From positions 124,001-188,000 of the forward strand of contig NZ_JAPDPD010000007.1 of assembly GCF_026283965.1 (NCBI RefSeq): a stretch of 64,000 nucleotides of DNA. Reading direction: 5' to 3'. Under the pieces are notes generated by a model. It saw nothing but the letters and a program-made list of their open reading frames with translations. It was not told the DNA's origin and ran no database searches. Positions within the stretch are counted from its first letter, which is position 1. The number at the start of each line of letters is the position of its first letter. Shown piece after piece: positions 18,734-60,319 of the stretch. The translations under genes and the position numbers were made by a program. The DNA is from Dyella subtropica. GTDB taxonomy: Bacteria > Pseudomonadota > Gammaproteobacteria > Xanthomonadales > Rhodanobacteraceae.

Positions 18734-19008
18734 GGTGTTACTCCTTCATTGGGCCTTGTGTAGGTGGCCCGGGGGTTGGGACCTCCACGCATCCCCGGCT
18801 TCGACCGCGGGCTTCCCGTGCCCATAGGGCGTGGTGGGAATGACCGCGGCACCCCGAAGACGGTGCCGACGCGTGTGTGGCGTTGGTTTGTCCGATTGGC
18901 ATGTCCAATCAGAGACTTGGGCGATCATGCCGCGTCGCGGTTACAATCGCTTTTCGCTTTGCGACTGCTCGTTCAGGCTGTAAAAACAGTCTCGTGCAGT
19001 CAGCAAAA
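18734..19008 (-). promoter_or_regulatory. Long structured leader of rpsB (candidate S2 autoregulation site)
   Basis: About 275 nt lie between the predicted transcription start and the rpsB ATG. Hairpins are visible: GATTGG/CCAATC at 18894-18910, GGCACC/GGTGCC at about 18848-18867, and a small CTGT/ACAG stem near 18977. In E. coli S2 represses its own operon through the leader. A similar role here is inferred from position and structure; I did not align it to the known leader family. Confidence 0.45.
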
Positions 19009-56161: not shown

Positions 56162-57031
56162 TCATTCCCTTTTTACGGAAATGCCAAGTTGCTCAAGCTG
56201 TTTTTGCACGCTGTCAGGACCAGCCAAATGCCCGGCGCCTACTGCAACGAAGCTCACGCCAGTTTGCTGCATGCGTTCGGCGATGGTTTTTGCCCAGGCT
56301 TTGTTGCGTTTGACGATCATGCGTTCGTAGAGCTCGGGGCTTTCTTGTCGCAGGTCTTCGTCTTCGATGCGGGCGATGGTGTCGACGTCGCCGTTGCGCC
56401 AGGCGTCGATGAGGTTGCGCAGTTTGGCGGGGCCTTCGGCGATGTCGCTGAAGGTTTGGCGCAGGAAGTCGATCTGCATGGGTTCGGGCATGTCGGCCAG
56501 CAGGCGGAGTTGCTGTTCGGCGGTTTCCAGGCCGTCGACCGGTTTGCCGGCTTTTTGCATGCGGGCTCTGAGCAGTTTGTCGACGCCGAGTGCGGGATCC
56601 ATGCCGGCTTGTACCAGCGGTGCGACGGCCAGGGTGACGGCGGCGAGCCAGGGGCGCATGGGTTGCAGGGTGGCGATGCCGCCGGGGAGCTTGGCGGCAG
56701 CGGCGGCGCGTTCGAGGCGGGTGCGGTCGTGCAGGGTGAGTTTGTCGGAGAGCGGATGCGAGAGGTCGAGACCGTATTTGAGCACCTGGGCTTGCATGTT
56801 GGCGGCATCGTCGTCGATCAGTTCGACGCTCAGGCGCTGGCTGGCCTCCAAGGCCTTGTCCAACTCAGGCGAGGACCAGTGGGTGTCGGTAGGCAGCAGG
56901 TGGACGGTGCCGAACAGGTAGACCGTGGCGTGGTCGTTTTTGGCAACCCACAAGCCGGGGTGCGCGACGACGGGGGCGGCCAATAGCAAGCTCAGCGCCA
57001 GCAGCGCGCAGATACGACGGAACAGCTTCAA
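56162..57031 (-). CDS. TraB/GumN family protein
   Basis: About 289 residues, exported (KLFRRICALLALSLLLAAPV...AHPG). The TraB/GumN pattern is clear: LWVAKNDHATVYLFGTVHLL at the start of the domain, WSSPELDKALEASQRLSVEL, GVDKLLRARMQKAGKPVDGL, and the C-terminal SFVAVGAGHLAGPDSVQKQL. The conserved GTVH and GAGHL histidines suggest a metal-dependent hydrolase of the Tiki/TraB superfamily, by family knowledge. I place the start at TTG 57031 because GGGAG lies seven bases upstream; an ATG at 57064 has a weaker site. Last gene of the fluoride-riboswitch operon. Confidence 0.83.
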   Translation of the reverse strand: MKLFRRICALLALSLLLAAPVVAHPGLWVAKNDHATVYLFGTVHLLPTDTHWSSPELDKALEASQRLSVELIDDDAANMQAQVLKYGLDLSHPLSDKLTLHDRTRLERAAAAAKLPGGIATLQPMRPWLAAVTLAVAPLVQAGMDPALGVDKLLRARMQKAGKPVDGLETAEQQLRLLADMPEPMQIDFLRQTFSDIAEGPAKLRNLIDAWRNGDVDTIARIEDEDLRQESPELYERMIVKRNKAWAKTIAERMQQTGVSFVAVGAGHLAGPDSVQKQLEQLGISVKRE

Positions 57032-57087
57032 CGTGGTACTCCCTGGAGCGGGTGCGCAGGCCATGCGGCGCCTGCGGATGGAATGGA

Positions 57088-58143
57088 TCAGTGGGCGGCG
57101 GCGCGCCCGGCTTCGACATCGAGCAGGAAGCGCGTGAGGCCGTCGAAGTATGTGCGCTGATCATCGTACATCGCCATGTGGCTGCCTTTGGGGCAGAGCA
57201 GGAAGCGGCCTTGCGGCAGTTTCTTTGCCATGGCCGCCATATAGGCCGGATCCATGGTGTCGTACTGCGCGCCGATGACCAGGGTGGGCACGGCGATGCG
57301 ATGCAGGTCTTGGCTGCGGTCCCAGTGTTCGAGGCGGCCGCTGGCACCCAGTTCACTGGGGCCCTGCATCAAGGTGTAGACCTGCTCGTTCAGATGCCCG
57401 AACGAGCGCTGCACTGGTTCAGGCCACTGCGCCTGGGGTATGCGCAGCACATGTTTCTCGTAGTGTATGGACGTGAGGATTTGCATGTAGCGCGGGTCGC
57501 TGGTGCGACCGCTGGCTTCGAGTTGCTGCACTTCGGCGAGCAGCTTAGGGTCCATGGTAGGCATCAGCACGTTGCGTGCGTACGCGTTATAGGCCGGGAT
57601 GGAATCCACCATATTGGAGATCACCAGGCACTTCAGGTGCTTCTGGTACTTCAGTGCGTACTCCATCGCGAGGATGCCGCCCCAGGAGTGGCCGAGCAGA
57701 CAAAAGTTGTCCTTGTCCAGGTGTAGCGCCTGGCGCACCTGTTCCACTTCCTCCACGAAGCGTTCGGTGGTCCATAGCGACTCGTCCTTGGGCTGGTCGC
57801 TGTAGGCCGAGCCAAGCTGGTCGTAGTAGTAATACTCGACGCCGGCGGCGGGCATGTAACTGTCGAAGGCTTCGAAGTACTCGTGCGTGTCGCCGGGGCC
57901 ACCGTGCAGCAACAGTAGTTTGAGTTTGGGGTTGTTGCCGATGCGCTTGGTCCAGACGCGAAATTTACCCTTGGGCGTGTCGATGTCGATCATCTTCACG
58001 CCACCGCTGAGCACGTCGTCGCGACCCTGGTGATCGAAATAGGACGAGGCGGCAGCCGGACCACGCACAGCGTTTTCGCCATGAACGGACAGGGCCCCGC
58101 AGAGTCCAAGCGTGGCGAGCAAGACAGCAAGTTGGCGTTTCAT
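57088..58143 (-). CDS. Proline iminopeptidase-like alpha/beta hydrolase (S33), exported
   Basis: A 351-residue alpha/beta hydrolase. The N-terminus KRQLAVLLATLGLCGALSVHG is a signal peptide. LKLLLLHGGPGDTHEYFEAF has the HGGPG oxyanion motif of proline iminopeptidases, YYYDQLGSAYSDQP follows, the nucleophile is in NFCLLGHSWGGILAMEYALK, the acid in GAQYDTMDP and the histidine in CPKGSHMAMYDDQ. ATG at 58143 with GGAGG six bases upstream. The substrate is unknown; N-terminal proline peptides or an amide/ester are possible. 24 bases after cfa in the same operon. Confidence 0.85.
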   Translation of the reverse strand: MKRQLAVLLATLGLCGALSVHGENAVRGPAAASSYFDHQGRDDVLSGGVKMIDIDTPKGKFRVWTKRIGNNPKLKLLLLHGGPGDTHEYFEAFDSYMPAAGVEYYYYDQLGSAYSDQPKDESLWTTERFVEEVEQVRQALHLDKDNFCLLGHSWGGILAMEYALKYQKHLKCLVISNMVDSIPAYNAYARNVLMPTMDPKLLAEVQQLEASGRTSDPRYMQILTSIHYEKHVLRIPQAQWPEPVQRSFGHLNEQVYTLMQGPSELGASGRLEHWDRSQDLHRIAVPTLVIGAQYDTMDPAYMAAMAKKLPQGRFLLCPKGSHMAMYDDQRTYFDGLTRFLLDVEAGRAAAH

Positions 58144-58170
58144 CACGACCCTCCATCGAATGACCCAGCC

Positions 58171-59289
58171 CTAGCGCGGTACGCGATAGCCGCCAGGCAC
58201 GCCGTGCGGACTCAGTGTGATCTGCCAAAGTTGGTCGCGCCGGCTGCGGAACACGGCGGCGGACACGGCGAGATAGAAGTTCCACATACGATGGAAACGG
58301 CCGTCGTAGCACTCCGAGAGCGTTGGCCAGGCCGCGTCGACATTGGCCCGCCACGCCATTAGCGTGCGGTCGTAATCCGCCCCGAAGTTGTGCCAGTCCT
58401 CCACCACAAACAGGCCCTGCAGCGCTTCGGCCACTTGGTGTGCAGAGGGGATCATCGAATTGGGGAAGATGTATTTCTCGATCCAAGGGTCGGGTCGCGA
58501 GGGTGAGCTGTTGCTGCCGATGCTGTGCAGCACGAACAGGCCCTCCTCTTTCAGGCAGCGTCGCGCCGTTTCGAAATAGGTGCGGTAGTTGAGCGCGCCG
58601 ACGTGTTCGAACATGCCGATGGAAAAGATGGCATCGAACGGTTCGTCGAGCTCGCGGTAGTCCTGGAGACGAATGTCCACCGGCAGGTCGACGCAAAGTT
58701 CGCGTGCGAATTCGGCCTGTTCCTGCGATACGGTGACGCCGACGCCCTCGATGCCATAGCGCTCGGCAGCGTACTTCAGTGCCTCGCCCCAGCCGCAGCC
58801 GATGTCCAGCACGCGCTGCCCCGGCCGCAAGCGCAGCTTGCGGCAGATCAGATCGAGCTTGGCGACCTGGGCGTCATCGAGGTTGCCGGCCTCGGCCCAG
58901 TAGCCGCAGGAATACACCAGGCGCTTGCCCAGCATGGCCTGGAACAGGTCGTTACCCAGGTCGTAGTGGGTGCGGCCGATCTCGAACGCGTGTTCACCGC
59001 GCTGCAGGTTGACGAAGCGCGCCTTGAGGTGGGCCAGCAAGGTGTCGAGGGTCTTTAGTTCCTGGTCGATATGCGCGGAGAGCAGGTGGCTGAACATGCC
59101 GGGCAGATCATCCGCATCCCACCAGCCGTCCATGTACGCTTCTCCGAGGCCGAGCGAGCCATGGGCGAAAACGCGGGCGTAGAGGCGGTCATCGTGGACT
59201 CGCATGTCGGTAGGCGCATCACCGTCGATATGGATGCCGGCGAGTTCAAGCAGGGTGGTGGCGCGTTGTTTCAGCGAATCCCGACTCAT
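58171..59289 (-). CDS. cfa: Cyclopropane-fatty-acyl-phospholipid synthase
   Basis: Adds a methylene group from S-adenosylmethionine to unsaturated acyl chains of membrane phospholipids. The 372-residue protein has THYDLGNDLFQAMLGKRLVY followed by SCGYW (catalytic-region Cys), the SAM-binding VLDIGCGWGEALKYAAERYG, FDAIFSIGMFEHVGALNYRT, and the C-terminal HNFGADYDRTLMAWRANVDA. The ATG at 59289 has AGAGG upstream and gives near-E. coli length (382). It lies 17 bases after DUF190, inside the fluoride-riboswitch transcription unit. Confidence 0.94.
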   Translation of the reverse strand: MSRDSLKQRATTLLELAGIHIDGDAPTDMRVHDDRLYARVFAHGSLGLGEAYMDGWWDADDLPGMFSHLLSAHIDQELKTLDTLLAHLKARFVNLQRGEHAFEIGRTHYDLGNDLFQAMLGKRLVYSCGYWAEAGNLDDAQVAKLDLICRKLRLRPGQRVLDIGCGWGEALKYAAERYGIEGVGVTVSQEQAEFARELCVDLPVDIRLQDYRELDEPFDAIFSIGMFEHVGALNYRTYFETARRCLKEEGLFVLHSIGSNSSPSRPDPWIEKYIFPNSMIPSAHQVAEALQGLFVVEDWHNFGADYDRTLMAWRANVDAAWPTLSECYDGRFHRMWNFYLAVSAAVFRSRRDQLWQITLSPHGVPGGYRVPR

Positions 59290-59306
59290 GCATGCCTCTT
59301 GCGTGA

Positions 59307-59636
59307 TCAGCGTTTGCCAAGTACCTCGAAGCTTGCCGTGGCAGATGCATAGACGACGTCGACGTCGGCGGCACGTACCGCAGCGAGCATCGTTTCGGCT
59401 TGTGCCTCGCTCAGTAGGAACTCGACCTTCACGGGTAGATCGTCGGCGAGTTCGAAGAACTGTTCCTCGTGCAGCACGCCGTGACGTCCGTAGCCACCCA
59501 AGGCGCGGAACGCCGAGCCGCCGCTGATGCCCTGGCGCTTGGCCTCTTCCAGCAACCATTCGTACACGAGCAAATCATGGTGCCGGGCGCGCAGGTGGCA
59601 GTAGAAGCTCAGCAGCCGGCCTTGTCGGATGGTCAT
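59307..59636 (-). CDS. DUF190 family protein
   Basis: A 109-residue PII-like small protein. HDLLVYEWLLEEAKRQGISG, then GSAFRALGGYGRHGVLHEEQ and LPVKVEFLLSEAQAETMLAA are typical of DUF190, which folds like a PII signal protein and is often encoded beside crcB. Its role in fluoride tolerance is not established. ATG at 59636, 13 bases after crcB. Confidence 0.9.
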   Translation of the reverse strand: MTIRQGRLLSFYCHLRARHHDLLVYEWLLEEAKRQGISGGSAFRALGGYGRHGVLHEEQFFELADDLPVKVEFLLSEAQAETMLAAVRAADVDVVYASATASFEVLGKR

Positions 59637-59649
59637 GACGCCTCCTCGT

Positions 59650-60036
59650 TCAACTGCGCAGCAGGGTGCGGGTGAGCGCGATGCCCGCCACGGTCATGGC
59701 GATGGAGCCGACCAGGTGCATCGCCACATGGCCGGCGAACCAAAGATACTGCTGACGCAGCAGCAGGGTGGTCGACTCAGCCGAGAAGGTGGAGAAGGTG
59801 GTCAGTCCACCCAGGAAACCAGTGGCGACAAACAGGCGCAGTTCGGGCGGCAGTGTCTGGAAATGGTCGAACACGCCCAGTACACCCCCCATCAGAAAGC
59901 CGCCCAGCAGGTTCGCGGCGAGCGTGCCCAGGGGAAGAGTAGGGAGCAGGGGGTTGAGCAGCACGCCGAGTATCCAGCGCAGCCAGCAACCGAGCGCGCC
60001 GCCTATGCCGACAACCAGGAATCCGGTGTAACCCAC
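59650..60036 (-). CDS. crcB: Fluoride-specific ion channel CrcB/Fluc
   Basis: A dual-topology four-helix fluoride exporter channel. The 128-residue protein has GYTGFLVVGIGGALGCWLRW (with the conserved G-x-GxxxR), PLGTLAANLLGGFLMGGVLG (conserved N) and the pore motif VATGFLGGLTTFSTFSAEST (GxxGGxTTFSTF, Na+ and Phe-box). The start is GTG at 60036 with an AAGGAG nine bases upstream. It is the first gene under the fluoride riboswitch. Confidence 0.95.
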   Translation of the reverse strand: MGYTGFLVVGIGGALGCWLRWILGVLLNPLLPTLPLGTLAANLLGGFLMGGVLGVFDHFQTLPPELRLFVATGFLGGLTTFSTFSAESTTLLLRQQYLWFAGHVAMHLVGSIAMTVAGIALTRTLLRS

Positions 60037-60075
60037 GAGTGGTGTCTCCTTTAAAGGCGCTTGGCCCTTCGTGGG
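60032..60075 (-). promoter_or_regulatory. Possible translation-control hairpin of the crcB leader
   Basis: On the minus strand CCCACGA (complement of 60069-60075) is the exact complement of TCGTGGG (complement of 60032-60038), which includes the crcB GTG start. The hairpin would enclose the AAGGAG and hide the start codon. Whether fluoride binding relieves this pairing is inference. Confidence 0.45.
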
Positions 60076-60113
60076 AAGCAGGCACATGCCTGCGCCCCGG
60101 CGAGGCCGGTGGT

Positions 60114-60183
60114 GCAGGCATCATCAACCCGAAGGTGGTTTGTTCCGTTGTTGTTGGGCGGAACGGGAGGCATGCCATCTCCC
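60114..60183 (-). ncRNA. Fluoride riboswitch (crcB motif) aptamer
   Basis: The minus strand carries the crcB-motif landmarks in order. GGGAGATGGCATGCCTCCC gives the first stem and the pseudoknot strand. An optional extra hairpin follows (GTTCCG...CGGAAC). Then comes AACAAACC-ACCTTCG-GGTT, and finally TTGATGATGCCTGC, whose ATGCC closes the pseudoknot with GGCAT. It lies directly upstream of crcB in the same orientation, about 77 bases before the GTG. Its ligand, fluoride, is established for the family. It should switch on the downstream operon when fluoride enters the cell. Confidence 0.93.
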
Positions 60184-60319
60184 TGCGCCGTGCATGCTAG
60201 CCGATGGATGCCGCGGATCGCCAACTGGCACGGGGCGACGGGACAGAGCGCGGCTTATACTCCCGGCCTACGTGCCACCCGCCTTGGGATGCGCAGAATA
60301 GATCAGAGCATCCCTTGCC

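Follow-up and report, generated by a model that had tools for sequence, protein, structure and literature searches.

A putative fluoride-riboswitch operon containing a cyclopropane fatty acid synthase gene in Dyella subtropica and other Rhodanobacteraceae

A 64,000-nucleotide stretch of the Dyella subtropica genome (RefSeq assembly GCF_026283965.1, contig NZ_JAPDPD010000007.1, positions 124,001 to 188,000; hereafter the window, in whose numbering all coordinates are given) carries a fluoride riboswitch aptamer followed on the minus strand by crcB, a DUF190 gene and cfa, the gene for cyclopropane-fatty-acyl-phospholipid synthase. The order aptamer–crcB–DUF190–cfa is a conserved unit in the family Rhodanobacteraceae. 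In the explanation we favour, to which we assign a probability of roughly 0.6 on the sequence evidence, this unit would be the core of a fluoride-riboswitch operon in which Cfa tightens the membrane against hydrogen fluoride (HF) and protons.

The locus and its conservation in the family

Profile matches bore out the order of elements described on the minus strand by an earlier reading of the window (the original prediction), which runs from the aptamer through crcB, DUF190 and cfa to an S33 hydrolase gene and a TraB/GumN gene. RBS stands for ribosome-binding site.

60194..60224, minus strand: promoter-like site, TTGGCG (60224..60219) and TAGCAT (60199..60194) with a spacer of 19, read by eye
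60191..60108, minus strand: fluoride riboswitch aptamer RF01734, 36.7 bits against a gathering cut-off of 34
60086..60121, minus strand: putative OFF hairpin with the 3' strand of the aptamer as its 5' arm, fold of -27.6 kcal/mol, no T-tract
60050..60045, minus strand: RBS-like AGGAGA of crcB, from the sequence
60036..59650, minus strand: crcB (Fluc fluoride channel), start GTG, NF010792 148.8 bits against a cut-off of 125
59636..59307, minus strand: DUF190 protein (COG1993), PF02641 64.2 bits
59289..58171, minus strand: cfa, cyclopropane-fatty-acyl-phospholipid synthase, start ATG, NF008686 573.8 bits against a cut-off of 400
58143..57088, minus strand: S33 (proline-iminopeptidase-like) hydrolase, TIGR01250 321.9 bits against a cut-off of 167.65
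57031 (TTG) or 57064 (ATG)..56162, minus strand: TraB/PrgY/GumN gene, PF01963 247.2 bits

The gaps of 13, 17, 27 and 56 nt given by the original prediction are correct with the hydrolase starting at ATG 58143 and traB at TTG 57031; the alternative starts GTG 58146 and ATG 57064 would make the last two gaps 24 and 23 nt. Its statement that no internal terminator follows crcB also agreed with a pattern scan, which placed no terminator-like site in any gap downstream of that gene. In total the scan returned 6 such sites (3.6 ± 1.8 in shuffles), and both of those on the minus strand overlap one another inside crcB.

The aptamer (E = 1.6e-6 with the 64-kb window as search space) was the sole RF01734 match reported across the whole genome. 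It contains the conserved core letters and stems of RF01734, with a long insertion in the loop region, and is predicted to bind fluoride and activate the genes behind it. In alignments, CrcB kept a TFSTFS stretch, which we take to be the phenylalanine/threonine stretch of the Fluc pore, and Cfa kept the residues aligned with E. coli C139, E239, H266 and Y317, presumably the active-site positions. Compared with Fluc/CrcB channels (PDB 5a40, E = 6.6e-27), the window's CrcB is a single-gene Fluc in which nothing notable differs, and the DUF190 protein matched PDB 1o51 (E = 6.3e-9). Residues 8–372 of Cfa aligned with E. coli Cfa (PDB 6bqc, E = 5.3e-124; NF008686, PRK11705 family), with the active-site residues common to both. 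Judged by the equivalog cut-off it exceeds and the active-site residues it retains, the window's cfa is predicted to encode cyclopropane-fatty-acyl-phospholipid synthase. It is the only full-length copy found in its genome: a protein scan gave one match, and the remaining PF02353 matches span at most 130 of 273 positions. The closest Cfa among the 80 named loci kept, a set from which records of the window's own genome were possibly omitted, was that of Dyella jiangningensis (87%). All 48 plasmid-borne cfa records were below 60% identity.

We searched 97 genomes of the family, 67 of which had an aptamer match and 96 some Cfa match; 91 genomes yielded 94 full-type cfa loci (hidden Markov model (HMM) score >400) and the other 6 none. 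Aptamers were found by RF01734 search, and crcB, DUF190, cfa, hydrolase and traB genes by iterated HMMs on the fetched neighbourhoods. When gene order after crcB was compared across these relatives, as the original prediction had proposed, cfa emerged as a recurrent partner. crcB lay upstream of cfa on the same strand and within 3 kb at 77/94 loci (77/91 genomes, 23/25 genera), DUF190 at 63/94 (18 genera) and an aptamer no more than 5 kb upstream at 58/94 (17 genera), and 56 cfa loci had both crcB and the aptamer. Viewed from the other end, crcB was the first gene behind 62 of the 103 aptamers of the family. A 4-nt overlap between the cfa start and the DUF190 stop was seen in 9/70 measured loci (median gap 37.5 nt, the gaps depending on a rule for choosing starts). 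Two further genomes, G081 (by eye) and G052 (by pattern), have aptamer letters upstream of crcB that were left unscored by Rfam at the gathering threshold, and were excluded from the 58. Among the named GTDB loci, crcB was upstream of cfa in 72/80 and an aptamer-like pattern was present in 58/80; at all three named Stenotrophomonas cfa loci, crcB was absent. Because of this survey, combined with the synteny control presented below, the aptamer–crcB–cfa order can be regarded as more than chance.

Some genera depart from the common arrangement. Tandem crcB genes precede DUF190 and cfa in 3/6 genomes of genus g22 (L072, L158, L166) and could possibly encode a heterodimeric Fluc. In genus g24, read in G042, a gene of the major facilitator superfamily (MFS) is inserted between DUF190 and cfa.

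The original claim of a fluoride-riboswitch operon including cfa was thus supported for the linkage of aptamer, crcB and cfa, and additionally by two loci where cfa comes straight after an aptamer; it was not supported for the two hydrolase-type genes at its end. As fluoride genes, the S33 hydrolase and TraB were rejected for too low conservation: the former directly follows cfa at 12/94 loci in 3 genera (g1, g4 and g14), the latter at 20/94 loci in 8 genera (within 6 kb at 46/94). The hydrolase, with an export signal judged likely by eye, is a lineage-specific neighbour, probably outside the fluoride unit, and TraB is a frequent, variably placed neighbour that does not look part of it. A fluoride-response operon made of the full five-gene set would be in line with the short gaps and with the same order in 5/6 genomes of the window's genus (one without detected DUF190); set against the few loci, and for the hydrolase the few genera, where either gene directly follows cfa, it is very improbable. 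Elsewhere in the window, a t44 RNA (RF00127, 60.7 bits) was found at 18775-18897 on the minus strand.

Synteny, aptamers directly before cfa and the range of the linkage

One rival account treats cfa as a syntenic passenger: crcB–DUF190 and cfa would be old neighbours, often by parC, with cfa under a promoter of its own (for example a stationary-phase one) and without a fluoride role. Several observations pull in that direction, and so away from the favoured explanation. With marker limits of 8 and 6 kb, parC was near 53/94 cfa loci and a divergent Bcr/CflA-type MFS gene near 51/94, many of the fetched stretches extending only 5–6 kb from cfa. In Luteibacter and others, crcB–cfa persists where no aptamer was found. 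Three genomes of genus g25 (G043, G056 and G084) have a cfa without crcB and without its own aptamer, the aptamer beside it pointing away from the gene; an Rfam scan at E 0.1 revealed no hidden aptamer before cfa in these three, and in two of them a promoter-like stretch could be seen by eye. Local synteny accounts for part of the crcB–cfa linkage, and linkage alone is no proof of function. Against the passenger account, crcB was kept near cfa more often than parC or the MFS gene, by a margin that is not huge, and the crcB–cfa pair was retained at 11 loci with neither marker found, some of whose contigs or stretches end early. That account is further weakened by the 4-nt overlaps, by the failure to find a promoter-like pair within 250 nt upstream of cfa at 70 loci (see below) and by the two cases of an aptamer immediately ahead of cfa, in one of which the gene is a second copy located in a multi-aptamer stretch. 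Taken together, we consider a mere passenger role unlikely.

Examples from Luteibacter, among them L087 (G047) and L246, showed crcB–cfa without detected DUF190 and without an aptamer, a pairing that either outlives or predates the riboswitch. An aptamer elsewhere in G047 leads a CLC-like gene (by eye).

At the two loci in question, G009:C40 and G025:C87, an aptamer directly precedes cfa without crcB, and both Cfa proteins are above the NF008686 cut-off. Genome G009 has the standard operon and, in addition, an island copy of cfa, 67% identical to the window's, which a separate aptamer of 49.1 bits precedes by 175 nt; in this leader, a hairpin on the aptamer 3' strand was already present in the 44-nt fold. 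The island protein formed a long, deep branch in a quick Cfa tree with open forks, used solely for the relation of the G009 copies and the sisterhood of G025 and G071, and on this tree it is not a recent duplicate of the G009 operon copy. In G025, an aptamer of 34.3 bits lies 147 nt before cfa with no crcB between, and a second aptamer, with crcB, is located ~9 kb off on the same contig; G071, its sister in the tree, has the full aptamer–crcB–DUF190–cfa order. The weight of these cases for the favoured explanation is reduced in three respects: two are few and may share a history, the score in G025 is barely above the cut-off of 34, and the G025 leader pairs the aptamer strand only in the 75-nt fold.

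The window, with its single operon, differs from the multi-aptamer stretches of the family, which cluster CLC, enolase, NuoH-like and MFS genes; genes behind RF01734 aptamers are common to both. Aptamer matches, some of them below cut-off, numbered 9 in G080:C35:39326-97077 (L127-L130), 8 in G007:C4 (L131-L132) and 7 in G009:C40 (L110, L121), the last with one below cut-off and with enolase, Snf2-type helicase, MFS and NuoH-family genes. CLC, DUF190, NuoH-like, MFS, Snf2-type helicase and PilT-like genes were led by aptamers in such stretches (some by Pfam, some by eye). A prenyltransferase toroid gene (PF00432) follows an aptamer in G080 (L129:210-1097), and genes whose products look similar by eye stand behind aptamers in G007 and G009. 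NuoH-family subunits were seen behind aptamers facing away from cfa in G009 (L110:16533-17477, Pfam) and, by eye, near such aptamers in G025, G084 and G056 (loci L101, L096 and L105). One kind of MFS protein with the motif FADMTYEG (L110:12787-14028 and L099:6278-7474, alike by eye) occurred in two fluoride contexts, once in G009, next to the island cfa and an aptamer, and once in G042 (genus g24), where it separates DUF190 from cfa, and is possibly an unrecognised fluoride-response transporter.

E. coli cfa is transcribed from sigma-70 and sigma-S promoters that belong to it and is not known to lie near crcB. In a one-per-family sample of the class (134 genomes), 22 other genomes carried a comparable Cfa (E no higher than 1e-100); in contrast to the window's locus, crcB was beside cfa in 0/22 of them, and 16/22 have crcB somewhere. 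RF01734 matches were obtained in 8/134 class genomes and in 67/398 phylum genomes, both figures including family members. The riboswitch loci fetched outside the family gave a further point against the favoured explanation: none of 70 had a cfa match, with crcB present at 40. One pair of these loci overlaps, flanks extended ~1.5 or 3 kb, less where a contig ended, and 8 phylum and 3 class aptamer rows, all under cut-off, were left out. As far as sampled, the link with cfa is therefore a feature of the family. Full-text literature searches turned up no prior report of a link between cfa and the fluoride riboswitch among the matches listed, the gene list of Baker 2012 being outside that scope. 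Riboswitch partners named in the available text of PMC2864571 and PMC11139923 include mutS, K+/Cl- transport, formate hydrogen lyase, fluoride exporters and Na+/H+ antiporters, and cfa is not named there; the word 'cyclopropane' occurs 0 times in the main text of Weinberg 2010 (PMC2864571).

The leader and control of the unit

The window's operon resembles known crcB riboswitch operons (RF01734), as far as these are described in PMC2864571 and PMC11139923, in its leader aptamer, the overlapping downstream hairpin and crcB as first gene. In the modelled folds, its leader fits an expression platform that excludes the aptamer by a hairpin on the aptamer 3' strand. A hairpin with this strand as 5' arm was possible in 62/62 family leaders with crcB first, a result weaker than it looks because half of the shuffled leaders (aptamer part fixed, remainder shuffled) fold likewise: the pairing threshold was passed by 58/62 real leaders and by 619/1240 shuffles. 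The modelling suggests that the trend across leaders is real and that composition helps it.

Further points against control of the whole unit concern termination. The window hairpin has no T-tract, GUGCCUGC following its stem, and a T-tract, by a crude rule of four or more U within the 8 nt that follow, was found in 9/62 leaders. That the hairpins of most genera, the window's included, have none would suit an alternative in which the riboswitch controls crcB only, through translation or weak attenuation, and cfa is in the transcript yet does not respond to fluoride. On the opposite side, T-tracts do follow the hairpin at the same place in genera g2 and g4, including the leader of G058 (g4), and the crcB RBS of the window is 35 nt past the hairpin. 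The modelled unpaired fraction of the RBS in 59 leaders averaged 0.29 versus 0.27 between states, with a change of >0.3 in 4; accessibility is hardly state-dependent, which speaks against translation control, and RBS masking was rejected as a mechanism. Control confined to crcB thus appears improbable, more so than the passenger account, and transcription attenuation of the whole unit is the proposed mechanism that we favour.

Shuffles that keep letters only served as the baseline: ahead of the aptamer, a -10-like motif occurred in 55/62 leaders where 5.9 were expected, and a -35/-10 pair in 27/62 where 0.0 were expected. As the motif was picked after viewing the aptamer leaders, these aptamer-side counts describe and do not test, which limits what they can lend to the favoured explanation. 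In the 250 nt before cfa, the -10-like motif was rarer than expected (8/70 against 20.7), and this region is mostly coding, so coding constraint inside DUF190 may deplete the motif. A separate promoter before cfa, which the original prediction had itself named as contrary evidence, was sought with the family motif: no aptamer-type -35/-10 pair was present in the 250 nt before cfa at any of 70 loci (0.5 expected). A promoter scan likewise gave none before cfa, and the same scan misses the aptamer's promoter too.

In the favoured explanation, transcription would start at the promoter-like site just upstream of the aptamer. Without fluoride, pairing of the aptamer 3' strand to the downstream arm would end most transcripts; with fluoride, the aptamer would hold that strand and RNA polymerase would continue into crcB, DUF190 and cfa. 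As local neighbours outside the conserved unit, the genes for the S33 hydrolase and TraB may also be transcribed by read-through.

Cyclopropane lipids and the fluoride response

Fluoride enters cells largely as HF, which dissociates inside, and its export depends on the proton-motive force, according to PMC11139923. CrcB would release fluoride from the cell, and Cfa would turn unsaturated membrane acyl chains into cyclopropane chains, with less leak of protons and weak acids such as HF. The tighter membrane would then reduce re-entry of exported fluoride and protect the membrane potential on which Fluc export depends. A limiting effect of cyclopropane lipids on the leak of HF or protons is plausible.

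A variant of this explanation ascribes to Cfa a general contribution to acid tolerance: HF brings protons too, and the benefit would lie in pH balance, not in HF permeability. In its favour, PMC7083825 connects cyclopropane acids with the acid resistance that E. coli shows in stationary phase, and PMC11139923 describes acid-stress genes as often raised by fluoride and Na+/H+ antiporters as linked to it; moreover, an aptamer-led NuoH-like gene lies divergent to cfa in G009 (Pfam) and G025 (by eye). The variant differs from the HF-permeability version in the last step only, and no present evidence separates the two; we regard it as a somewhat doubtful alternative.

Published fatty-acid profiles potentially reflect the control of cfa. 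In Table 4 of PMC12789092, cyclo-17:0 was not detected in four of 6 Dyella strains and made up 0.7% in one, with 16:1 (1.2-7.4%) and iso-17:1 (13.3-18.0%) present; five of the six strains were grown in R2A, and the available text of that paper makes no mention of fluoride. These low values would fit a cfa switched off in the absence of fluoride if the strains in the table carry the operon; D. ginsengisoli is represented in the survey by another strain. Two entries speak against such a conclusion. The remaining Dyella, taken from another study, had 3.3% cyclo-17:0 in the same table. A cyclopropane acid was listed for 0/5 Luteibacter strains, L. flocculans EIF3 among them, in Table 2 of PMC9965599, in which some values are compiled from other papers and a dash means not detected or not reported. 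Since Luteibacter, with crcB–cfa and without an aptamer in front, also shows none, the silence of cfa is not peculiar to loci under the riboswitch. As a test of cfa control, the fatty-acid tables consulted cut both ways and are ambiguous.

Should the favoured explanation hold, the coupling of a lipid-modifying enzyme to a fluoride sensor would add a membrane barrier to the fluoride response, and the effect of cyclopropane lipids on HF permeability would become testable. It could also help explain the little or no cyclopropane acid in profiled Dyella under routine culture. The stronger proposal, that the bilayer itself is a component of fluoride defence, with fluoride switching on cyclopropanation through the riboswitch, the bilayer thereby holding back HF and protons better as Fluc exports fluoride, and cfa largely silent otherwise, is put forward tentatively, at appreciably less than even odds.

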